Source: Blastococcus saxobsidens DD2 (GTDB taxonomy: Bacteria; Actinomycetota; Actinomycetes; Mycobacteriales; Geodermatophilaceae). From it: a stretch of DNA of 64,000 nucleotides. Location: contig NC_016943.1 in NCBI RefSeq assembly GCF_000284015.1, positions 1,157,541 through 1,221,540 on the forward strand, written 5' to 3'. A program made the translations under genes and the position numbers. This document shows, one piece after another, positions 2,178-47,823 of this stretch (positions are counted from its first letter, which is position 1; each line of letters opens with the position of its first letter). The notes beneath the pieces are model-generated. The model worked only from the letters and a program-made list of their open reading frames with translations. It had not been told where the DNA came from and did not search any database.

Positions 2178-2222
2178 TGGTGCGCCATCAGGGACTCGAA
2201 CCCCGAACCCGCTGATTAAGAG
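2178..2222. repeat. attL: 45-bp duplicate of the tRNA-Lys 3' end
   Basis: Identical over 45 bp to 17072-17116, covering encoded CCA, acceptor 3' arm, T arm and the 3' half of the anticodon stem-loop on the minus strand. Identity stops at 2222, so no full tRNA can form here. As the tRNA body lies at the right end, this left copy is the displaced original chromosomal 3' end. Confidence 0.95.
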
Positions 2223-2485: not shown

Positions 2486-3619
2486 GTGGTCAGCATCGCG
2501 CGGCGGCCCAACGGGCAGTGGCGGCCGCGCTACCGCGACGCGGCGGGAAAGGAGCACGCCCGGCACTTCGACAAGAAGGCCGACGCGCAGGCGTGGCTCG
2601 ACTCGGTCACCACCTCGGTGCTCACCGGCGCCTACGTCGACCCCAAGCGAACCCGGGTCACCGTCGCCGAGTGGGCCGGCCAGTGGCTGGACAGCAAGGT
2701 CGACCTCAAGCCGACGACCCACCGCTGCTACGAGGTCTCGCTGCGGGTGCACGTCCTCCCGACCTGGGGCCCGGTGCGGCTCGGCGACATCACCCACCAG
2801 GGCGTCGCCGCCTGGGTGGCCCAGCTGTCCCGGTCGGGGAAGAGCGCCTCGACCGTGCGCCACGCCCACCGGGTGCTGTCGCTGATCCTGGGCCTGGCGG
2901 TGCGTGACGGCCGGCTGGCCCGCAACCCGGCGGTCGGCGTGCCGCTGCCGCGCAGGGTGCGCGGCGAGCAGATCTTCCTCACCTACGCACAGGTCGACGA
3001 CCTGGCCGCGGCCGCCGGCCGGGACCGGCTGGCCATCCTGTTCCTGGCCTACACCGGCGTGCGCTACGGCGAGATGGCGGCCCTGCGGGTGCGCAACCTC
3101 AACCTGCTGCGCCGCCGTGCGCTGATCGCCGAGGCCGTCGCCGACGTCAACGGCCGCGCGGTCTTCGGCACGCCGAAGACCCACCAGCGCCGGCAGGTGC
3201 CCATTCCGCGGTTCCTGGCCGAGGAGCTCGCCGTCCACGTCGCGGACAAGCTGCCCGGCGACTTCGTCTTCGCCGCGGAGAAGGGCGGCTTGCTGCACCT
3301 GCGCAACTTCCGCCGGATGAGCTTCGACCCCGCTGTTCGCGCCGCCGGCCTGGACGGGCTCACCCCGCACGCGCTGCGGCACACCGCCGCCTCGCTGGCC
3401 ATCGCCAGCGGCGCCAACGTCAAGGTGGTGCAGACCATGCTCGGCCACCAGTCGGCGACGATGACCCTGGACCTGTACGGCCATCTGCTCAACGACCAGC
3501 TCGACGAGGTCGCCGACGCGATGGACGCGGCGCGTGCCGCCGAGGCGTCGTCGCGTCGCCCGGCAGCGACCGTGGCGGCGCTGCCCACCGGTCGCTCGGC
3601 CGGCGGCCCGGTCGGATGA
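2486..3619 (+). CDS. int: Tyrosine recombinase / site-specific integrase
   Basis: 377 residues. The N-terminus has the arm-binding three-strand fold signature (VSIARRPNGQWRPRYRDAAG), followed by a SAM-like core-binding domain (about 60-150) and the catalytic domain. Catalytic residues are visible: R193 in TGVRYGE, H295-x-x-R298-H299 in HALRH, H321 in LGHQS and nucleophile Y331 in LYGHLL. It should catalyse integration and excision of the surrounding element at tRNA-Lys. The GTG start at 2486 gives the expected family N-terminus. The gene reads inward from the left att site. Confidence 0.95.
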   Translation: MVSIARRPNGQWRPRYRDAAGKEHARHFDKKADAQAWLDSVTTSVLTGAYVDPKRTRVTVAEWAGQWLDSKVDLKPTTHRCYEVSLRVHVLPTWGPVRLGDITHQGVAAWVAQLSRSGKSASTVRHAHRVLSLILGLAVRDGRLARNPAVGVPLPRRVRGEQIFLTYAQVDDLAAAAGRDRLAILFLAYTGVRYGEMAALRVRNLNLLRRRALIAEAVADVNGRAVFGTPKTHQRRQVPIPRFLAEELAVHVADKLPGDFVFAAEKGGLLHLRNFRRMSFDPAVRAAGLDGLTPHALRHTAASLAIASGANVKVVQTMLGHQSATMTLDLYGHLLNDQLDEVADAMDAARAAEASSRRPAATVAALPTGRSAGGPVG

Positions 3620-4058
3620 CCCGACCAGCGGGCGGTCATGTGGAGCCGTGGCTGGGCCGCTTCCCACCCCCGAGCAGGATGCCGGCCGTCTTGGTCGCCG
3701 GAAGGGCGCTGCCGCGTCGCTGCGCGATGGGCCTGCGGCCCACCCTTCCCGCGACCTGCGCCGGCCGGCGGGAGGCGGGTTGCGGGATGCGGCCAGGACT
3801 GTGGGACGCCGCCCGGGGTCCGAAGGGAAGGCCGATTCCGGGCACTGCTCGAGCCGGTCGGGACACACCGCGGAGCGGGACGCCGACTGCGCCGTCCAGG
3901 AGGGCTGTGGACGACGAACGAGCCGTCCACAGTCGTGGCGGCTAAGCGCTACGGCGACACCGAGGCCAGACACTGCGCGTTAGTCAGGTGCGACCAGTCT
4001 GGAGGGCGCGATATGCCCTAGCCATCTTGTCGCGACCGATGCCTGAGCCGACCTTAGG
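3620..4058. other. Gap after integrase with an inverted repeat
   Basis: No gene is supported here. A 9-bp inverted repeat, CTGTGGACG at 3905-3913 and CGTCCACAG at 3924-3932 with a 10-nt loop, could terminate the integrase transcript or be a protein-binding site. Confidence 0.5.
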
Positions 4059-4067
4059 GTGCCGAGC

Positions 4068-5603
4068 ATGACGCAGGAGGCGGACGGGGCGCAGAGTCGT
4101 GACAGCGGAGATCCGCGCGAGGAGGAAAAAGTTCGCGTTTGGTGGTGGCAGCGCCCAACCCTGCGCGCACTGGCAGAAGAACATGAATCTGAATGGCGAC
4201 GGCTACTCAACGACCCCACCGAACGCTTACCTCAGATCCCTGACCAAGCTGGCGTCGCACTCTCCGGTTTCGTATTCGCAGAGGCCTTCCCGCCCTCGAT
4301 GGCATCTCGCCTGCATGAACGCCTCGCAGCTCGGTCCTCCAAGAAGGGGGGATCGCCTCGCGCACGCTGGCAGGACGTGTGGGCACTCAGTCGTAGCGGC
4401 GAAGTGACAAGTTGGTCGACTCTAGGCGTCGTATCGCGCCCGAATCATGGGAGAGAGTGGGCTACTGGCCGCACGGATTCCACCCTCCCGAAAGGCGTGG
4501 AAAACGTGGAGCTGCATCTAGTGCATGTCATCCCATCCGTTGCCATCGTTACCGCCGCATTCGCACTCACGGATGAGGGCTCCGACTTAACGAAGCTCTT
4601 GCGGACCGACTACACGGGCGGGGCTCGTAATCCCAAAGTCATACCGCTAGGGACAATGGGCTCACTTCGCTCACGGATTCCGTGGTCGCGTCCCGCGCGT
4701 CACACGACGTCGGCGCAAATTAGTAGCCGCGCGGACGAGCGCCGCCGAGCCTTCAACGAATACACCGAGCGACTCGAACAAGAATGCAGATCCTGGTTTG
4801 TTCGCGAGTTTCCTGGCCGTTTCTCGAGGGTCGACGCCCGGGATGCGCCCTCGGTGAGGATAATGCTCGTTGAGGGTTGCGACCCCTTCCGCGAGCGCGA
4901 TGACTGGATCGCGGATATCGGGCTCGGATGGACATTCCCTGTTTTCACCTCCTCGGCTTGTCCGGGATGGTCGCTAACATCCGACAGGCCAACTCCGCGC
5001 CAACGGCGATTCGGAGTCACTGTCGCCGCGCGACGCGACGACGTGGCAGCCGATCCCCGTCTTGGCGAAGGCCCCGAACCAAATGCGGCGATAGTGAGGC
5101 GTGTGACTCGACAGCATCAAGCGCTTATCGTCCCTCAGTCCCTCGAAGCTCTGCTGTCCGTGCATGCAGACCGGCTAGCCATCTTGCGGGACGGGGCTGG
5201 ACAGCGCGGGAAGGTGAGGCGACCCGTACGTGAAGCGCGCGCACTAGACGACTACCTCTTGGGTGACGGTCTCGATGCGGCAACTGTAGCGCCAGACGTA
5301 AAAGCACTGGCACAAAATTGCTCAGTCTTCTCCAGAGACCTTCCAGTCTATGTCGAGGATCTGAGCCACTTAGCGGCCGATCAATCCAAGCCTGCCGCTG
5401 AACTGGTCCCTGATCTAGCGACCGAACTTGTTCGTCGCTCCGAAAGCCTGATTGAGGACATGTCCAATACTATCGATAACCTGCGGGGTTCTGCCGAGCT
5501 GCGACAGGCAGTGGCGAACACTCGCCTCCAGCGAACGGTCGTAAGTTTCACGCTCGTTGCTTTGATCGTTGCGGTTGTCAGCCTTCTCGTGACCATTCTT
5601 TGA
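4068..5603 (+). CDS. Unknown tail-anchored membrane protein
   Basis: 511 residues, no family recognised. The soluble part carries Trp/Arg-rich stretches (RVWWWQRPTLRALAEE near the start). A helical, probably coiled-coil segment around residues 435-480 is followed by one C-terminal membrane helix (VVSFTLVALIVAVVSLLV) ending at the stop, so it is predicted to be anchored by its tail with the bulk in the cytoplasm. ATG 4068 is chosen because an AGGG sits ~9 bp upstream; GTG 4059 is possible. Base composition is clearly more AT-rich than the surroundings and codon use differs, suggesting recent transfer as cargo. It stands alone between large non-coding gaps. A defence or surface role is possible but unsupported. 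Confidence 0.75.
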   Translation: MTQEADGAQSRDSGDPREEEKVRVWWWQRPTLRALAEEHESEWRRLLNDPTERLPQIPDQAGVALSGFVFAEAFPPSMASRLHERLAARSSKKGGSPRARWQDVWALSRSGEVTSWSTLGVVSRPNHGREWATGRTDSTLPKGVENVELHLVHVIPSVAIVTAAFALTDEGSDLTKLLRTDYTGGARNPKVIPLGTMGSLRSRIPWSRPARHTTSAQISSRADERRRAFNEYTERLEQECRSWFVREFPGRFSRVDARDAPSVRIMLVEGCDPFRERDDWIADIGLGWTFPVFTSSACPGWSLTSDRPTPRQRRFGVTVAARRDDVAADPRLGEGPEPNAAIVRRVTRQHQALIVPQSLEALLSVHADRLAILRDGAGQRGKVRRPVREARALDDYLLGDGLDAATVAPDVKALAQNCSVFSRDLPVYVEDLSHLAADQSKPAAELVPDLATELVRRSESLIEDMSNTIDNLRGSAELRQAVANTRLQRTVVSFTLVALIVAVVSLLVTIL

Positions 5604-6061
5604 TCACGTTAGCGATCCCGGGCATGGCAGGGCTCGTGCAAAGTCGTGCGACACGGCCTGACCCCGTGCTGGCGCGGCCTACTGGCTGATGGGCGCCGAT
5701 CATCGGCCGTCTATCGCTCCGGCGTGCGACCCGCCCGGTCGCTGCACTGTTGGATGCTCGGCCCGCCGAGCCCGGGGCGGCACCAGTTCCCCGCCGGTCG
5801 AAGACGACGTTGTGGCGCCACGCAGGGGCAGGCGTGCGCGGTGGGACATCGGTGCGCACATTGTCCCGCTCTTAAGAGGCTGCCCGTGGGGGCCTTCCTG
5901 ACCCTCCGGGAGATCCGAGCACACCGCAGCGACGAGTACGGCGATGAGTTCCCTCGGCCGGGGCGATCAGGGCCCGGCTGTTCCCGTCGAGCGGGCGGTG
6001 CATGGTTCCGGGCGTCGAGCCTGGTGCGGCCGAGCGCGGGGTCCGGGGTGCCCGCCGCCGG
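5604..6061. other. Non-coding gap, nothing recognised
   Basis: About 460 bp with only shadow reading frames; no repeat, RNA or gene remnant was recognised. Confidence 0.5.
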
Positions 6062-6661
6062 TCAGCTTGACCTCTCCCGACTGGCGAGGAGTGCTGAGGC
6101 GACCACCCGGTCGTACTCGTCGAGCGGGAGGTCGAGCGCGTGGCGGACTCGCAGCCGCGCCGCCATCAGCCCGGCGGCGTCCTCCGCGGCGTCGAGGTCG
6201 TCGCCCTCCTCGACGTCGTTCACCGCGCGCTGCACGCCCATGGTGAGCCAGCGGTGCGCGGCGCGGAGGTCGCCCGTCGACTCGTAGTTCTCGCCGACGA
6301 GCAGGTAGACGTCGCCGTCGATCGGTCGCTCGCGGCGCAGCTCGTCGGCCAGGTCGCGGGCGGCGTCGAGGTCGCCGACCCGCAGCAGGCCGCCGTGCAG
6401 GTAGCAGCGGACGTCGGGCGGCACGTACTGCCCGGACTCGACAGCGCGGCGGAAGCAGACCACCGCTTCGCGGAGATCACCGGCTGCGGTCAGGTGCTCG
6501 CCTGCGCTGACGAACAGCAAGGCCGGGGTGACCTCCCCGGCCCGCGGGTCGGGCTCCTCGGCCCAGGCGGCGAGCCGCTGCGCCGTGGCGCGGCGCTCCT
6601 CTGGCGTCCGGGCTCGCGCATACAGCTCCTCGATGTCGTCCGCGGTCCGTGGTCTGCGCAC
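6062..6661 (-). CDS. TPR-like helical-repeat protein
   Basis: 199 residues starting at GTG 6661 (VRRPRTADDIEELYARART). The frame stays open to 6853, but the extra N-terminus is Pro/Arg-rich low-complexity sequence and is left out. Repeated helical pairs are seen, e.g. EHLTAAGDLREAVVCFRRAV and AARDLADELRRERPIDGD, with TPR-like spacing. The stretch RAAHRWLTMGVQRAV closely matches HELALRWLTNGLELAV in the SEC-C protein encoded at 10042-11070, so the two are probably paralogous modules. Likely a cytoplasmic scaffold; partner unknown. It is divergent from the AbiE-type operon. Confidence 0.7.
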   Translation of the reverse strand: MRRPRTADDIEELYARARTPEERRATAQRLAAWAEEPDPRAGEVTPALLFVSAGEHLTAAGDLREAVVCFRRAVESGQYVPPDVRCYLHGGLLRVGDLDAARDLADELRRERPIDGDVYLLVGENYESTGDLRAAHRWLTMGVQRAVNDVEEGDDLDAAEDAAGLMAARLRVRHALDLPLDEYDRVVASALLASRERSS

Positions 6662-6862
6662 CCGGCCACCGTAGGCGGCGCGCGCGGGTCGGGGTACCGG
6701 GGCGCGGAACGGGGTCCGGCGGGGTGGCGCGGCGAGGAGAGGGGGCCGGGCGTCGAGGCGGAGTCCCCGGAGGCGCAGCGGCGAGGCGGCTACCGTGCTG
6801 ACCGCTGGTCTGGGAAGGATGGGTGGGCGCGCCGTCAGAGGCGTCATCTGCAAGCCTCTGGC

Positions 6863-6875
6863 ATGCTATAAGCAT
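6863..6875 (+). promoter_or_regulatory. Promoter with palindromic operator for the AbiE-type operon
   Basis: The 13-bp palindrome ATGCTATAAGCAT contains an extended -10 hexamer (TGC-TATAAG). It is followed by GGAAGGAG at 6881-6888 and ATG at 6895. AbiEi-type antitoxins are known to autorepress by binding inverted repeats in their promoter, so this is a candidate operator; binding is inference. Confidence 0.55.
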
Positions 6876-6894
6876 TATCAGGAAGGAGCTGTTA

Positions 6895-7959
6895 ATGTTT
6901 ATACCTATGCACGCCTGGGCGGCGCTACTCGAGTCCGGGGTCACCGTACGGCCCACGGGGCCGGCCCAGGTAGAGCTCGTGGCCGCCGAGGGGGATGCGG
7001 TGGCCGTCACCGCGGTCGTGGAGCGCCGGCTCACGGCGCTGTCGCCCAGCCATGTCCGCAGCCACCTGATGCAAGGTTCGCCGGCGCGTGGAGAGCTGCT
7101 GCTGGTGGTCCCCTCGGCCAGTCGGGCCGCCCTGGACGCGGCCGCCGCGGCCGGCATCTCGGTACTCGTGGCCGACCCGACCGGTCCGTCTGCGGTCACC
7201 GGACGGATCGTGCTGCCCGACCGGACCATCGAACTGGGCGTCGACCTCCCCCGTCCGGACGCGAGGCAGCCGCCGAGCCGACCCGGAAGGCGACCGTGGG
7301 GCGCGCTCACCGTCGTCCGCCGGCTGCTCACCGCCGGCCCGGCCACGCAGGTCGACCTGGGACGGTCAGCCGCGGTGTCCCAGGCGCGGGTGTCCCAAGC
7401 GCTGTCCGGGCTCGTCGCCGACGGACTCGTGCGACGCACGGCCGACGCGGGCCGGCCCCGCTGGGCCCCCGCGGACTGGGACGCGCTGGTCGACTGGTGG
7501 CTGACGAACTACCCGGGCCCCGGCGGCATCACCACCTACTGGTACGGACTGGCGGGCGTCCCCGAGCAGGCCCGGGCGGCCGTTGCCGCGGTGAGCGCCG
7601 CCGGCATGCCGGCCGCGGTGTCCGGCGACGTCGCCGCCGACCTGCTCGCGCCCTGGCGGCGACCCGGCCGGGCTGTCGTCTACGCCGACCCGTCCGGCCG
7701 ACCCGTGCACGACGAGCTGACCGCGGCCGAGCTGACGCCGTCGGGTGCCGGGGAGGCCACTCTCGAGCTGATCGTGCCGGCCGACCCCGGCGTGTGGCCG
7801 GCGCCTGGCACGAGCGCTGCCGAGGCCGACCTGCCGCTGGCAGACCCCCTCCAGCTGCTCTGGGACGTGGCCCGCGCCCCCGGTGCCGACGTCGACCAGG
7901 CCGTCGCCGCGCTGCGGCCGGTGCTCAAGGCCCGCGCGGCGGCCGCCGCGTCACGGTGA
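6895..7959 (+). CDS. AbiEi-like antitoxin / winged-helix regulator
   Basis: 354 residues. ATG 6895 is chosen for its strong SD (GGAAGGAG, 6 bp away); an upstream in-frame start at 6823 would pass through the promoter. A winged helix-turn-helix lies at about residues 145-195 (TAGPATQVDLGRSAAVSQAR, then LVADGLVRRT). The gene overlaps the next by GTGA and precedes a nucleotidyltransferase-like gene. This order is typical of AbiEi/AbiEii type IV toxin-antitoxin systems, in which the antitoxin represses the operon and counteracts the toxin without direct binding. The family call rests on the HTH plus context. Confidence 0.7.
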   Translation: MFIPMHAWAALLESGVTVRPTGPAQVELVAAEGDAVAVTAVVERRLTALSPSHVRSHLMQGSPARGELLLVVPSASRAALDAAAAAGISVLVADPTGPSAVTGRIVLPDRTIELGVDLPRPDARQPPSRPGRRPWGALTVVRRLLTAGPATQVDLGRSAAVSQARVSQALSGLVADGLVRRTADAGRPRWAPADWDALVDWWLTNYPGPGGITTYWYGLAGVPEQARAAVAAVSAAGMPAAVSGDVAADLLAPWRRPGRAVVYADPSGRPVHDELTAAELTPSGAGEATLELIVPADPGVWPAPGTSAAEADLPLADPLQLLWDVARAPGADVDQAVAALRPVLKARAAAAASR

Positions 7960-8759
7960 GCGCCGCACACCGCCTGGTCCTGGTGTCGGCTGGCCGGGCC
8001 AGCGACGCGGCGTTCCTCGCCGCGGCCGACCTGGCCGCGATCGCCGCCGATCTCGATGTGCCCTACCGGCTCGTGGGCGGCAACGCCGTCACCCTGCTCG
8101 TCGCCGCGCACGGGGTCAGTGACCTGGTGCCGGGGCGAGAGACCGCCGATGCCGACTTCGGCGCGGCGTACCCGGTGGTCGCCGACCCGCGGCTGCTCGC
8201 CGCGCTGCGCGAGCGCGGGTACCGACAGCAGTCCGGCAACAGGTTCCTCCGCACGCACACTCTGGGGCCGACCACCGGACGCGCGGCGCCGAGCTGGGAC
8301 CTCGTCATCGACGTGCTGGCCCCGTCCTACGTCGGCCGGCTTCTGCCTAACCAACCGCACGGCGAGCTGGTGGTCGACGAGGTGCCGGGCCTGAACCTGG
8401 CGCTGGCCCGTGACGGCACGCCTGTCACCGTCGAGGTGACCCTCACCTCGGGTCACAACGTGGCGACGGCCCTGATGCTGCCGGACGTGGTCTCCGCAAT
8501 CTGCCTGAAGGCCTACGCCTACGCCGGGCGCTTCACCGAGCGGGACGCCGTCGATCTGTGGCGCCTGCTGGAGGCGGCGTACGCCGCCGGCATCACCGCC
8601 GCCACGTGGCCGGCCGGGCCTACGGCCACCGAGGCAGCGGCCGTGCTGCGCCAGCACTTCGGCCGCCCCGGCGCCGCTGGCCTGGCCCGCGCCGGCGACA
8701 GCATGCGCGACCGCACCCGCATCACCGCACTCGTGACCCACGTCGTGGGTCCACGCTGA
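7956..8759 (+). CDS. AbiEii-like nucleotidyltransferase (putative toxin)
   Basis: 267 residues from GTG 7956, overlapping the upstream stop by 4 bp, so probably translationally coupled. The pattern RLVGGNAVTLLVAAHG followed by RETADADFG is the nucleotidyltransferase G-G-x-A ... D-x-D arrangement: the metal-binding acidic pair lies near residue 62. AbiEii/MenT toxins transfer nucleotides to tRNA or other targets in the cytoplasm. Together with the preceding gene this is a likely abortive-infection or element-stabilising module. A domesticated nucleotidyltransferase with another role cannot be excluded. Confidence 0.7.
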   Translation: MSAAHRLVLVSAGRASDAAFLAAADLAAIAADLDVPYRLVGGNAVTLLVAAHGVSDLVPGRETADADFGAAYPVVADPRLLAALRERGYRQQSGNRFLRTHTLGPTTGRAAPSWDLVIDVLAPSYVGRLLPNQPHGELVVDEVPGLNLALARDGTPVTVEVTLTSGHNVATALMLPDVVSAICLKAYAYAGRFTERDAVDLWRLLEAAYAAGITAATWPAGPTATEAAAVLRQHFGRPGAAGLARAGDSMRDRTRITALVTHVVGPR

Positions 8760-11334: not shown

Positions 11335-14300
11335 ATGCAGGGCGGAATGAAGGTGTACGCCGGCGCGCCGGCGGCCGCCCGCTGCTACCTGGAGGCCGAC
11401 CGGGGCCGGGCGGACGACTACTACCTCACCGAGGGCACCGGGCTCGCCCGCCGGTTCACCGCGACCCATGGCCGGGTGACCGAACTGGGCCCGCTGACCG
11501 GCGAGGCCTACGAGACCTGGGTCGCCGGGCGGGACCCGGAGTCCGGTCAGTCGCGGGGCCGGCTGCGGTCGGACGCGCACGCCGTCCGCTTCGTCGAGGT
11601 CGTGGTCAACGGCCCGAAGACCTGGTCACTCGCCGCGGCGCTGCACCCGGACATCGCCGCGGCGTACGAGGCGGCGCAGGACCGAGCCGCCGAGCAGATC
11701 GTCGCCTGGCTGTCCGAGCACGCCACAACCCGGGTCGGGCCGGCCGGGGGTCAGGTACAGGTGCCGGTCGAGATGCTGGAGGCGGCCACGGTGCGGCACT
11801 ACACCAGCCGCGCGAACGACCCACACTGGCACCTGCACCTCCAATTCCTCTCCCGGGTGTACGCCGCCGCCAAATGGCGCGGCCTGCACACCGTCGGCAT
11901 CCGCGACTTCCTGGGCGCGATCAACGGGATCGGGCACGCGGCGATGGACACCGACCCAGAATTGAACGCCGCGTTCGCCGCCAACGGCTACACCAAGGAC
12001 CCGACCGGAGAAATACCGCAGCTGGCCGAATATGTGGGCGCGTTCAGCGCGCGGCATGCGCAGATCGCCCGGAATGCGGACCGCTACGAACGGGAATGGG
12101 CCGCCGCGCACCCCGGCGAAACAGCCGGGCCGGCACTGCGCCACGCGTGGGACGCCCGCGCGTGGGCCGAGGGCCGCCCGGACAAGGTCGCGCCGCAGCC
12201 CCGCGCGGACGTCGGCGAACGCTGGCGGACGGATCTTGCCGAGTTGGGCTTCCGCGCACCGACCAATCCCGTCCCGCTGTCGCCCACCCCGGTCGGCGCG
12301 CTGGACCGCGACGAGCTCGTCAGGCGGGCGCTGACTCGCCTGGCCGCCGTCCGCTCGGCATGGAACGCCGCGGACGTGCGCGGGGAGGTGGAGCGGCTGA
12401 TCGCCGCCGAGGGGGTCGTCGTCGATGCCGGGGTGCGGATCGAACTGGCCGAGGATCTCACCGCCCGCGCCATGCGTGCGTGTGTGCCGCTGCTGCAGCG
12501 GGACGGCGTGGCGGAGCACATCCGGGCCTGGACGTCCCGGCCGGTGCTCGCCGTCGAGGCCGACCTGACCGCCCGTTTCGCGGCCCGCGCCGTCGCGCGC
12601 TCAACCGACGCACCTCACTCTGGTCCAATACCCCCGCCGACCCACCTGACACCGACGGTCGCGCCCGCGGCGACTGCCGGAAAGCTGGATGCCGGTCAGA
12701 CGGCGGCGGTCGCCGCGCTGGCCGGCGACCGCGCGCTGATCGTGATTGAGGGCGCCGCGGGCGCGGGCAAGACCACCACCCTCGCAGCCACCCGCCAGGC
12801 ACTCGAGGAACAGGGGCGGCGGCTGGTGGTGGTCACCCCCACGCTGAAGGCCGCGAAGGTTGCCGCCGCCGAGATCGGGACTGCGGCCGGTTCGGTGGCC
12901 CGGCTGACCTTCGAGTACGGCTGGCGCTGGGACGACGATGGCGCCTGGACCCGCCTCGTCGTTGGTCAGACCGACCCGGTCACCGGGAAGACCTACGCCG
13001 GGCCGGAACAGGCGGCGCGGCTGCTCCCTGGCGATCTCCTCGTCGTGGACGAAGCGGGCATGCTGGACCAGGACACCGCCCGAGCGCTGCTGACCATCGC
13101 CGACGAGTGTCAGGTGCGCGCCGCACTGCTCGGCGACCGCCACCAGCTCGCCGCCGTGGGCCGCGGCGGTGTTCTCCACCTCGCGGTCGGCCAAGTCGAC
13201 GCCGATGCCTACCTGACACTGCAGGGGCTGCACCGGTTCACCCGCACCGGCCCCGACGGCCGCACACTGCCCGATACCGCATACGCGGACCTGACCCTGG
13301 CGATGCGCGCCGGCGATGACCCCGGGAAGGTGTTCGACGTACTGCTCGCGCGCGGGCAGATCCGGCTGCACCCCGACCCGGAGACCCTGCGGGAGGCGTT
13401 GGCCGGGGCCGCCGCCGCGCCGTCCTCCACCGACGGTGAGCGCATCGCCGTTGTGGCCGACACCCGCGAGCAGGTCGCCGAGCTCAACGCCGCTATCCGC
13501 GACCGGCTCGTCGCCGCCGGCCGGGTCGACGACGTGCACGCCGTCGTCACCGCGGCGGGGGAGTGGATCGGGGTGGGAGATCGGATCGTGACCCGACGCA
13601 ACGACCGCGACCTCGACGTCGCCAACCGCGACACCTGGCTGGTCCGCGCCGTCGCCGGCTCGCGGGGCGGACTTCTTGTCACCCCGGCCGATGTCACCCC
13701 TGCCGACGGTGCGCGTGGGTCTGTCACCCCCGCTGTCCCTCCGCGCTGGCAGGGTGCGCGGGTGCTGCCCGCCGACTACGTCGCCGCGCACGTGGAGCTC
13801 GCGTACGCGGCGACCGCGCACGGCGCGCAGGGGGAGACGGTCACCGCCGCCCATCTGGTGGTCGGTGAGCACACTGGGGCCGCGTCCGCCTACGTCGGAA
13901 TGACGCGCGGCCGGCGGGCCAACACCGCCCACCTGGTCGCCACCGATGTCGACCAGGCGCGGGAGCAGTGGATCGCGGTTTTCGCCCGCGACCGCGCCGA
14001 CCTCGGCCCCGCCCACGCCGCCCAGCGGGCAGCGGCCGAAGCCGCCCGCTACGCGACCCCCCGGTCGCTGGACGACGTCCTCGCCGAGCTGCGCGCCGCC
14101 TGGACCGAGCAGCAGCGCTGCGGCGACCTGCTCACCCGCCAGCAGCTGCAACGCGAAGCCCTCCGCGCAACCGTCGCCCGACACGCGGAAAGCTCTCAGC
14201 GGCTCTCCTGCCTGGAGGCCGACTGCGCGCAGGCCGCGACCGACGCCGCAGCCGCCCGGCAGCGGGCCGAGGCCAGCGGCTCCCGCGTCGCCGCCGACGC

Positions 14301-15012
14301 CGACCGGATCCGCGACGCCCTCCTCGACCGGTGGAACGCCGAGCGGGAGGCCGTCCGGCAGGCCGCCAGGGTGGTCCTCGACGGCTCCGGCCGGCTGGGG
14401 CCGCGCCGCGGCGCAGTGGCCCGCGCCGGCGAGCAGCTCACCGACTGGCACGCCACCTGGGCGTCGCACCTGCCGGGCCTGCCCGCCGACCACGCCCAGC
14501 TGATCCGGACCGCCGCCGGGAACGATGATCGGCCGACCCTGGAGGCGGCGCTGGGTGCCGCGGCCCGCCGTGCCGCCGAACGCGCGGACCCCGAGTACGC
14601 CAAGCTCGCCGCCGCTGCCGTCGCCGCCGAGCGCACCCACTACACCGCGCAACGCGAGCTGGACCGCGCCCGGTATGACCACGACCACCGCCACGGCACC
14701 ACGAGCCAAGCCGACTACGCACAGCAGCTGGCCGAGGCCGAACGCGGCCGCGCCGGCACCCGCCAGCAGCTCACCGACATCCGGGCGCGCATCACCACCC
14801 TGCAGGCCGACCCGGCCCTGCTCGCCCAGCCGCCCGAGCGTCTCCAGCAGGAGAGTGCGGCCTGGCGCGCCGGCCGCGACGCCATCCGACGCACGGCCCG
14901 GACGACTCCGCAGCCGACGGCCGGGGCCGACCCGAGCGTGCGCCGCCCGCACCCGGAAGACTTGCGCTACCTCACCCCACACCGCACCCCCGGCCAGGGC
15001 ATCGGGCGCTGA
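11335..15012 (+). CDS. MobF-family relaxase with SF1 helicase domain (TrwC/TraI type)
   Basis: 1225 residues. The N-terminal relaxase domain (~1-300) has candidate nucleophile tyrosines (Y18, Y29, Y30) and the metal-binding triad H164-x-H166-x-H168 in HWHLHLQF. A helicase domain follows with Walker A GAAGAGKTTT (K479) and Walker B VVDEA (D572, E573). A long Ala/Arg-rich coiled-coil tail fills ~870-1200. It should nick oriT, stay covalently bound to the DNA 5' end and unwind it during transfer. Start at ATG 11335; ATG 11347 is possible. Size and order match TrwC-type proteins. No coupling protein or secretion genes accompany it. Confidence 0.93.
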   Translation: MQGGMKVYAGAPAAARCYLEADRGRADDYYLTEGTGLARRFTATHGRVTELGPLTGEAYETWVAGRDPESGQSRGRLRSDAHAVRFVEVVVNGPKTWSLAAALHPDIAAAYEAAQDRAAEQIVAWLSEHATTRVGPAGGQVQVPVEMLEAATVRHYTSRANDPHWHLHLQFLSRVYAAAKWRGLHTVGIRDFLGAINGIGHAAMDTDPELNAAFAANGYTKDPTGEIPQLAEYVGAFSARHAQIARNADRYEREWAAAHPGETAGPALRHAWDARAWAEGRPDKVAPQPRADVGERWRTDLAELGFRAPTNPVPLSPTPVGALDRDELVRRALTRLAAVRSAWNAADVRGEVERLIAAEGVVVDAGVRIELAEDLTARAMRACVPLLQRDGVAEHIRAWTSRPVLAVEADLTARFAARAVARSTDAPHSGPIPPPTHLTPTVAPAATAGKLDAGQTAAVAALAGDRALIVIEGAAGAGKTTTLAATRQALEEQGRRLVVVTPTLKAAKVAAAEIGTAAGSVARLTFEYGWRWDDDGAWTRLVVGQTDPVTGKTYAGPEQAARLLPGDLLVVDEAGMLDQDTARALLTIADECQVRAALLGDRHQLAAVGRGGVLHLAVGQVDADAYLTLQGLHRFTRTGPDGRTLPDTAYADLTLAMRAGDDPGKVFDVLLARGQIRLHPDPETLREALAGAAAAPSSTDGERIAVVADTREQVAELNAAIRDRLVAAGRVDDVHAVVTAAGEWIGVGDRIVTRRNDRDLDVANRDTWLVRAVAGSRGGLLVTPADVTPADGARGSVTPAVPPRWQGARVLPADYVAAHVELAYAATAHGAQGETVTAAHLVVGEHTGAASAYVGMTRGRRANTAHLVATDVDQAREQWIAVFARDRADLGPAHAAQRAAAEAARYATPRSLDDVLAELRAAWTEQQRCGDLLTRQQLQREALRATVARHAESSQRLSCLEADCAQAATDAAAARQRAEASGSRVAADADRIRDALLDRWNAEREAVRQAARVVLDGSGRLGPRRGAVARAGEQLTDWHATWASHLPGLPADHAQLIRTAAGNDDRPTLEAALGAAARRAAERADPEYAKLAAAAVAAERTHYTAQRELDRARYDHDHRHGTTSQADYAQQLAEAERGRAGTRQQLTDIRARITTLQADPALLAQPPERLQQESAAWRAGRDAIRRTARTTPQPTAGADPSVRRPHPEDLRYLTPHRTPGQGIGR

Positions 15013-17071: not shown

Positions 17072-17147
<76 letters not shown>

Positions 17148-46176: not shown

Positions 46177-47823
46177 GTGGCCGGCTCCCTCTCAGACCTC
46201 TTCCAGCTGACCGACGTCACCGCGGACGAGTTCTGGAACCTGGTCGGCAAGGTCGAACACGAGCGTCTCGACTTCAAGGCCCGCGTACCGAAGGGCCTGT
46301 CGGACACTCTGGCGGCCATGGCCATGACCACCGGAGGCCTCGTGGTCATCGGCATCGACGACGATCGAAAGTTCGCTGGTGCGCAGCTGGAGCAGGCGGT
46401 CTACGACGGTGTGATGACTTCGGCTCATGACGTGGAGGTGTCCGTCACGACCCACGAGCTCCGCGTCGACGGGGTGCCGGTCGTCATGGTGGGAGTGCCT
46501 GCCGTTACCGGACGCTTGGTCACTACACCCAACGGGCGGGTGCTCCGCAGGGTCGGCTCGTCGAATCATCCGCTCCGGGGCGACGCGCTGGCGCGGTTCG
46601 TGCGGGCAGTGACTCTTCACCCTCGCGAAGACGAGCCGGTATCCGGTGTCGGAGTCGCTGACATCGATCTCGACGCCTTGAATCAACTACTGGCTGCACA
46701 AAAGCGTCCCAGGGTGACCCGGCGGGCAGCGCTGAAAAACATGGCTGAGCTCGGTCTCGCTGTTGAGCGGGCAGGCCAGCTCGTGCCGACGGTCGCCGGC
46801 GTCGTCCTGGCCTGCGTGAGTCCAGATGTTCACATCAAAGGTGCGCGTGTCCAGTTCGTCGACCGTCAGGGTGCCCCGACGCGCACCGGAGCATCACGGT
46901 CTAGGCACACGCTGAGTGCGCCCTTGTCCCGCCTGGTCGAAGAATTGGTTGCGCTGATCGAGAATGCCGGCGAGCGTCACGAGGCCGTGGTAGGCCTTCG
47001 GCGCGAGGTTATTCCTACTTTCCCTCGCGAGGTGCTTCGAGAAGCGCTGCTCAATGCCTTGGCGCACCGCGATTATCAACTTTCTGGCGGAACGGTTGAT
47101 GTCACTTTGTTCTCCGACCGCTTGGAAGTGCGTAGTCCAGGCGGACTTGCGGGGCATGTGACGCTGGAGAATCTCAGAGACGAACATTTCTCCCGCAACT
47201 CCCGCCTGATGGGTGCTTTGAAGAGTCTCGAGCTGGTCGATGAGTTCGGGGAGGGGGTGGACCGCATGTACGAGGGAATGGCGGGGCGTCTACTGCCCGA
47301 CCCGACGTGGTCCGCCACGGATGCCTCCGTCACGGTGACCTTGCGGAGCGAGTCCCCTGTGAGCCTCGACGACCAGGTCTGGCTTTCCATGCTGAGCGCG
47401 ACGCAGATGACCACAGACGAGCGTCGCGTGCTCGTCCTGGCCCGTCATGAGGGGCGCGTCACGCGCCGCAGCGTCCGTGCGCTCCTGGGTCCGGACGTCG
47501 ATGTTCCCAGTCTCCTGCGGGGAATGTTCTTCAAGGCGCTTCTGGTCCAAGTGGGCGAGCGCGGGGGGACCTACTACGAGCTGAGCCGAGAGATCGTGGC
47601 GCGTGTGGGTTCGTACGGCATTGCCGCGCAGGCTCGCCGGCGCGAACAACTGGTCGATCTGGTGCAGTCGCGGCGTCGCCTGTCTGTCGCGGAAGCAGCC
47701 GATGAACTGCATGTGCCCCGGGAAATCGTCAAGGGACTTCTTGTGGACCTGACATCCGAGGGGCTGGTTCGGGCAGTGGGCAACACACGTGCGCGCGTAT
47801 ACGTGCCGGCCGCTGACTCTTGA
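46177..47823 (+). CDS. Schlafen/AlbA-2 domain protein with ATPase-like region
   Basis: 548 residues from GTG 46177. The N-terminal AlbA_2/Schlafen domain reads EHERLDFKARVPKGLSDTLA then GGLVVIGIDDDRKFAGAQ. A middle region with FPREVLREALLNALAHRDYQ and LFSDRLEVRSPGGL matches the GHKL-like ATPase domain seen in such proteins. The C-terminus has winged-helix-like segments (RLSVAEAADELHVPREIVKG). Often annotated as transcriptional regulators or helicase-like; some relatives act in phage defence. Less GC-rich than the cob genes around it and not part of an operon, so probably inserted into the cluster. Confidence 0.82.
   Translation: MAGSLSDLFQLTDVTADEFWNLVGKVEHERLDFKARVPKGLSDTLAAMAMTTGGLVVIGIDDDRKFAGAQLEQAVYDGVMTSAHDVEVSVTTHELRVDGVPVVMVGVPAVTGRLVTTPNGRVLRRVGSSNHPLRGDALARFVRAVTLHPREDEPVSGVGVADIDLDALNQLLAAQKRPRVTRRAALKNMAELGLAVERAGQLVPTVAGVVLACVSPDVHIKGARVQFVDRQGAPTRTGASRSRHTLSAPLSRLVEELVALIENAGERHEAVVGLRREVIPTFPREVLREALLNALAHRDYQLSGGTVDVTLFSDRLEVRSPGGLAGHVTLENLRDEHFSRNSRLMGALKSLELVDEFGEGVDRMYEGMAGRLLPDPTWSATDASVTVTLRSESPVSLDDQVWLSMLSATQMTTDERRVLVLARHEGRVTRRSVRALLGPDVDVPSLLRGMFFKALLVQVGERGGTYYELSREIVARVGSYGIAAQARRREQLVDLVQSRRRLSVAEAADELHVPREIVKGLLVDLTSEGLVRAVGNTRARVYVPAADS

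Follow-up and report, generated by a model that had tools for sequence, protein, structure and literature searches.

A tail-anchored protein with a CorA-like predicted architecture, carried in the variable slot of an integrative element: a possible stand-alone defence effector

A gene markedly poorer in GC than its surroundings lies close to a tyrosine integrase gene in the genome of Blastococcus saxobsidens DD2, and its product ends in a membrane helix. What is this protein related to, and what could it do for the element that carries it? We addressed these questions within a stretch of 64,000 nucleotides, called the window hereafter and numbered from its first letter, and by comparison with other genomes, plasmids and phages.

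On the + strand, the reading frame starts either at a GTG in 4059 (514 aa) or at an ATG in 4068 (511 aa), and its stop codon is at 5601-5603. The longest open run in the 3976-5845 interval is 518 codons, whereas none of 500 mononucleotide shuffles gave more than 348. Because of this excess, and because protein homologues were found, it is not a chance ORF. Its GC content is 0.607 and its GC3 is 0.62, below its own GC1 (0.68). In the comparison set, made of the 36 genes that a GC-position gene caller accepted in the window with a length of 150 aa or more, GC is 0.740 (sd 0.030) and GC3 is 0.925. The same caller passed over the ORF under study, so that the reality of the gene rests on homology. 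We conclude that ORF 4059/4068-5603 is a real gene, AT-richer than its host and unlike it in composition, as the initial annotation had proposed for 4068-5603. The GC dip is restricted to about 3900-5700. Elsewhere in the window, another low-GC gene is found at 46177-47823 (0.644, the lowest value among the 36 called genes).

The features of the surrounding DNA are the following:

2178..2222, no strand: att repeat, left end of the element (45-bp exact direct repeat)
2486..3619, + strand: tyrosine integrase of the element (PF00589, E 1.5e-23)
3976..6757, no strand: variable cargo slot (DNA comparison with three sister elements)
4059..5603, + strand: gene under study, encoding the tail-anchored protein (ORF list, homologues, hydropathy)
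5845..6067, + strand: decayed tail with a disrupted frame, corresponding to roughly the last 69 codons of a GmrSD-like HEC-05 gene (80% identity to the gene of sister element L101)
6823..8759, + strand: AbiE-like pair, a MarR-type winged-helix protein and a nucleotidyltransferase-like protein (AbiEii at E 0.011 only; judged by eye)
11335..15012, + strand: TrwC-type relaxase-helicase of the element (PF08751, E 3.1e-51)
17072..17116, no strand: att repeat, right end of the element, 3′ part of the tRNA-Lys gene (45-bp exact direct repeat)
17072-17147, - strand: tRNA-Lys, overlapping the right att repeat

The two att repeats delimit a 14.9-kb element, which also contains a TPR-like gene, a pRiA4b ORF-3-like gene and a SEC-C/TPR gene. 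Outside the cargo, 1-kb windows across the remainder of the element have a GC content like that of the host (about 0.69-0.78). Integrase matches at E ≤ 1e-60 were present in 31 of 97 genomes, own genome included, the nearest being those of G020 (99%), G010 (97% and 98%, in two pieces) and G047 (94% and 91%, in two pieces). The own genome has six integrase matches, its own copy included, and one of them (L103) adjoins DNA related to the relaxase region (75.5% identity over 3.7 kb).

Comparison with three sister elements, those of these nearest genomes, showed where the cargo is exchanged. Similarity to the window extends up to 3975 (L100 and L101) or 3967 (L102), then breaks. Full similarity returns at 6758 in L101 and at 6825 in L102, and L100 reaches its contig end. 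In two of the sister elements, the AbiE-like pair falls within segments whose DNA is 89-94% identical. In L101, the slot (L101:4543-11930) contains a 678-aa GmrSD-like protein (PADLOC HEC-05, E 1.3e-202; GmrSD_N, E 1.8e-27), a DNA methylase (MTase_III, E 7.1e-94) together with a type III Res-type helicase (REase_III, E 3.9e-24), a PIN protein, and a 400-aa protein without match. In L102, the slot (L102:4281-6735) contains ORFs of which the two searched, of 332 and 250 aa, had no match in Pfam or PADLOC, possibly further unrecognised cargo. We conclude that the gene under study belongs to the exchangeable cargo of an integrative, mobilizable element, in agreement with its initial description as mobile-element cargo.

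The slot of the window appears to keep a trace of an earlier occupant. The HEC-05-like tail starts 240 bp behind the gene under study. On the L101 protein, the match to the PADLOC HEC-05 profile is limited to residues 1-574, and the window tail lies beyond this limit. DUF262 genes of Rhodococcus plasmids align to the L101 protein over residues 1-675, so that the tail belongs to the HEC-05-like gene itself. The possibility that it is a piece of element backbone is disfavoured by this alignment and by the coding-like GC3 that the tail retains. The better reading of 5845..6067, from sequence comparison, is therefore a gene remnant of former slot content. On this reading, the slot once housed a defence gene of a known kind and now houses the gene under study. 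Relatives of HEC-05 were found on 417 plasmid records.

The protein itself is predicted to be made of three parts:

4251..5048, + strand: predicted cytosolic alpha/beta region, residues 65-330 (AlphaFold2 model and alignment)
5079..5492, + strand: predicted long helices forming a CorA-like stalk, residues 341-478 (AlphaFold2 model and structure alignment)
5541..5597, + strand: single C-terminal transmembrane helix, residues 495-513 (hydropathy)

Residues 495-513 are the most hydrophobic 19-mer of the protein (hydropathy 2.78), and a single residue follows them. An internal hydrophobic peak at 152-170 was considered as a second transmembrane segment and rejected, as it corresponds to predicted beta strands in the model. 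The single C-terminal membrane helix announced by the initial annotation was thus recovered, and its mention of a coiled coil before the helix is a fair one, since predicted helices (341-382, 389-403, 407-423 and 453-477) precede the membrane segment. In the alpha/beta region, many residues are conserved in the family (E75, P79, R112, P144, F168, W246, G253, F255 and G288).

Sequence libraries gave no clue to the origin of the protein. It has no match in Pfam, PHROGs, NCBIfam or PADLOC; no family came up at E ≤ 1 in Pfam, nor at E ≤ 10 in PADLOC-DB 2.0.0. Ten family members searched against PADLOC-DB 2.0.0 at E ≤ 1 yielded a single match, of one member, at E 0.034, and none of the 10 members tested in Pfam matched the CorA profile (PF01544). 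Altogether, nothing below E 0.034 was obtained for the window protein or its family among Pfam, PHROGs, NCBIfam, PADLOC and PDB sequences. Literature keyword searches, which cannot prove absence, returned no publication that we recognised as being about this protein family.

Predicted structures were more informative. The AlphaFold2 model of the window protein is a middling one (pLDDT 67.6, with five models ranging from 42.0 to 67.6; pTM 0.69), and that of its relative L016 reaches a pLDDT of 78.7 and a pTM of 0.76. For both models, the best PDB match given by Foldseek was CorA, with E 0.0075 (window) and 0.014 (L016), and no match was at E ≤ 0.001 for either. The CD-NTase CdnG ranked second for the window model (E 0.013, probability 0.38); this likeness was set aside, being absent from the 50 rows listed by VIA for the window model and from the 50 listed by Foldseek for L016. 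In the VIA second-look alignment, the best 26 of the 50 rows listed for the window model, and the best 20 of the 50 listed for L016, were proteins of the CorA/ZntB/Mrs2/CmaX group, counting 5jtg and 5jrw, which we take to be CorA, their titles not naming it. The best Z was 8.2 for the window model (187 residues aligned, with a large rmsd of 13.4) and 10.6 for L016 (170 residues, rmsd 4.3). According to the notes of the tool, Z values of such size can be common, so that the strength of the result lies in the consistent ranking of CorA-type proteins, and in no single score.

A profile comparison with 20 actinobacterial CorA proteins, selected by their GMN motif, was weak: P was 0.13, and 0.037 when 21 family members were used, with a reversed control at 0.24. 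As a stand-alone proof of a CorA relation, it is unconvincing (0.037 versus 0.24). In this alignment, the last residues of the window protein stand opposite the end of the first transmembrane helix (TM1) of CorA, at the GMN. The GMN signature that follows TM1 is defining for CorA. The protein therefore resembles a CorA cut before its signature and its second helix. Indeed, GMN was absent from the C-terminal 150 residues of all 21 family members, and the window protein, which ends one residue past its C-terminal helix, has no second one. A second hydrophobic stretch behind the C-terminal helix was seen in L042 only, among 16 members. Taken together, the window chain is probably a divergent cytosolic domain and stalk of the CorA/ZntB/Mrs2 type, ending after the equivalent of TM1, with neither GMN nor TM2. 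As both are missing, an ordinary Mg2+ channel is unlikely. The initial annotation had seen no recognisable family in this protein; this holds for the sequence libraries, and no clear match to a known enzyme family was found, but predicted structures, at borderline scores, point to CorA/ZntB/Mrs2.

How widespread is the family? Profile searches were run on partly overlapping genome sets. Homologues were detected in 8 genomes out of 394 at class level and in 8 out of 397 at order level, the own genome counting in both; one of the class copies is broken, and one of the order copies has a disrupted frame. Within one family of this order, 6 genomes out of 297 gave a match, in one case weak and partial. 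At phylum level the figure was 2 out of 286, the own genome and one whose match was judged to be foreign sequence. The latter match (L118, on contig 24 of the actinobacterial assembly G1088) was not retained as a distant lineage of the phylum: it is 86.6% identical to the Pseudoalteromonas replicon protein and lies on a contig of 3.5 kb, and is probably a contamination. Two of six early matches (L005 and L006) were also dropped, as short matches in other kinds of ORFs. A scan of 84,980 species genomes with strict patterns gave at least 10 loci, two pairs of which were near-identical. On plasmids, relatives are carried by an Arthrobacter conjugative plasmid (40.6% identity to L016), an Agrobacterium conjugative plasmid (whose protein matched the family profile with a 99.6% probability), an 8.5-kb mobilizable plasmid of Paracoccus, a Rhodococcus plasmid and the Pseudoalteromonas replicon. 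These were reached only with other family members as queries, tblastn with the window protein giving no match among plasmids and phages. No member was found in 50,697 phage records (three queries), nor in viral contigs (two scans with strict patterns). The family is rare and patchy, occurring in about 2% of the sampled genomes of the class and order, and it extends to proteobacterial plasmids.

The window protein is a distant member of this family, its closest relative found (L040) being 29% identical. A profile built without it nevertheless recovers it at E 1.2e-55, and at 3.3e-30 when L040 and L041 are left out as well (Z set to 100,000 in both cases). An alignment of 21 members, from which the broken L041 was excluded and in which a near-identical Williamsia pair counts as two, has 17 columns with a conservation of 85% or more, one of them M1. 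Of these, 16 are retained by the window protein, the exception being a T replaced by A162. In 18 of the 21 members, the C-terminal end has a hydrophobic 19-mer scoring 1.9 or more; this helix is weak in the two Williamsia proteins (1.42) and missing from Rhodococcus L124 (0.51). Broken or truncated relatives are L041 and L014 (L014:1534-2209); the latter is adjoined by a resolvase-like ORF (2406-2987, by eye).

The neighbourhoods of the homologues were examined at 14 loci, nine by profile searches of selected genes (window, L016, L017, L018, L020, L024, L025, L040 and L042), and five by the annotation of the records (L120-L124). Homologue loci outside these 14 are L022, L023, L035, L036, L039, L041, L044 and L117; one gene beside L036 (read as L002) had no Pfam match. 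As a raw count, restriction-type, Mokosh, HNH-effector or SIR2-AAA genes were near 5 of the 14 loci. In Mycolicibacter (L020), MkoA (2.6e-234) and MkoB (4.8e-71) are divergent and adjacent. An Eco57I-type methylase (8.3e-247) is found at L024, with one unmatched gene in between, and an HNH effector-like protein (1.4e-29) is encoded directly upstream at L042. SIR2, AAA and HsdR_N genes are nearby on the conjugative plasmid L121, and the weakest of the five cases is L016, with a DNA methylase 4.8 kb upstream. Outside this count, L018:12351-17328 encodes 5-hmdU-DNA-kinase-like (HMUDK_hel) and MazG_C proteins, and is perhaps a base-modification or nucleotide-defence locus. Mobility signs, i.e. a recombinase, integrase, transposase or relaxase, or a mobilizable or conjugative plasmid, were present at 8 of the 14 loci (window, L016, L017, L025, L120, L121, L123 and L124).

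Other contexts were neutral or of the housekeeping kind. The neighbours are housekeeping genes at L122 (Pseudoalteromonas replicon) and metabolic genes at L124 (Rhodococcus plasmid). The annotation of L120 names no defence gene, the single gene searched beside L040 was without a match, and the 8.5-kb Paracoccus plasmid has no annotated defence neighbours except a RelBE pair. Contexts are therefore mixed, and not consistently of the housekeeping kind. No partner gene common to the loci was seen in the gene maps (by eye), which suggests that the family gene is a single-gene unit.

What, then, could the protein do? The reading that we favour, with a probability of about 0.45, is that this single gene encodes a stand-alone effector at the membrane, serving defence or exclusion, which has a CorA-like scaffold and is gated via its cytosolic domain. 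The defence role is inferred from genomic context. Through its stalk, the protein would form a ring, and it would stay silent until the cytosolic domain senses a product of an invading phage or plasmid. Upon sensing, the helices would open or perturb the membrane, and this would stop the invader or the cell. In this respect the protein would resemble the CorA effectors found in type III CRISPR systems, but it would act on its own and with a different trigger. Another trigger is needed since three known sources of effector messengers gave no match in the own genome: Cmr2 (TIGR02577) and Csm1 (TIGR02578), the Cas10 marks searched for type III CRISPR, and SMODS (PF18144), that searched for a CBASS cyclase. 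The initial annotation had named the gene a candidate for defence or superinfection exclusion: the content of the L101 slot, the HEC-05-like remnant and several neighbourhoods speak for it, while some neutral or housekeeping contexts do not.

The same membrane anchor, on an integrative element as well as on conjugative or mobilizable plasmids, and with the gene close to the integrase in the window, could also serve entry or superinfection exclusion, whereby the anchored protein would keep related elements, or the DNA of phages, from passing the membrane and leave the cell alive. We hold this to be unlikely: the family is spread over unrelated elements and the slot seems once to have held a restriction-type gene, both less expected for element-specific exclusion, and neither the phage records nor the viral contigs yielded members in the searches given above. 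A CorA-derived transporter or regulator, acting on metal ions or membrane stress for the physiology of the host or the element, would account for the fold resemblance and for the one member that lies amid housekeeping genes on the Pseudoalteromonas replicon and the one amid metabolic genes on the Rhodococcus plasmid. It is made quite unlikely by the loss of GMN in 21 of 21 members and of the second helix in the window protein, by the rarity and patchiness of the family (8/394 and 8/397 genomes, own included), and by the presence of CorA (PF01544) already in all 24 genomes tested, own genome included.

Two further explanations appear improbable. According to the published description (PMC10600005), the CRISPR CorA effector has some toxicity when expressed without its partner, and the present protein might likewise be a toxin-like, membrane-toxic product restrained by a linked factor, ensuring maintenance of the element by addiction; against this small chance stands the lack of a partner common to the gene maps, as judged by eye. 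With just as low a probability, the gene could be decaying or functionless cargo, in line with the broken or truncated relatives L014 and L041, the missing C-terminal helix of L124, and the decay of the HEC-05-like gene in the very same slot. The window copy, however, has an uninterrupted frame of 514 codons and differs in only one of the 17 columns conserved at 85% or more.

Returning to the stand-alone effector, there is a sizeable chance that the family is a new defence family. A broader proposal, which we put forward as tentative, is that Actinomycetota and Pseudomonadota share a new class of immune effectors, rare but widespread, each encoded by a single gene. These would be CorA proteins devoid of the selectivity motif, and nearly always of TM2, turned into ligand-gated membrane disruptors and carried by integrative elements and plasmids, in slots where they alternate with restriction systems. 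If true, immunity would have made use of CorA scaffolds beyond CRISPR systems as well, in the form of genes that act alone and respond to another trigger. The family is now defined by its conserved residues and about 20 sequences, and with a copy on an 8.5-kb plasmid it is ready for cloning and testing. The cargo slot of this element family can also be mined for more defence genes.

Among known systems, the GmrSD-like HEC-05 and type III restriction-modification genes of L101 share with the gene under study their cargo position and element family; the proteins are unrelated, and the genomic niche alone is in common. Similarly, Mokosh type I (MkoA/MkoB) is the immediate divergent neighbour of the Mycolicibacter member, but this is proximity only, the family having no match to Mokosh profiles. 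The comparison with CBASS membrane effectors meets a difference in the window genome, which has no match to a CD-NTase cyclase (SMODS). The metal channels of the CorA/ZntB/Mrs2 group (PF01544) are alike in their alpha/beta cytosolic domain, long stalk helices and membrane-entering helix, as predicted here at borderline scores, and unlike in that the window protein lacks a Pfam CorA match, the GMN and TM2. The last comparison is with the CorA effector of the type III-B CRISPR system of Bacteroides fragilis, for which the published description gives activation by SAM-AMP, a larger N-terminal domain joined to a C-terminal one that spans the membrane, a transmembrane part required for immunity, and a proposed pore opening on SAM-AMP binding (PMC10600005). 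The window gene differs in being apparently single, in having one helix, and in residing in a genome without Cmr2 or Csm1 match. The likeness, as drawn from this published description, lies in the association of a larger N-terminal soluble domain with a CorA-related C-terminal membrane part (PMC10600005).
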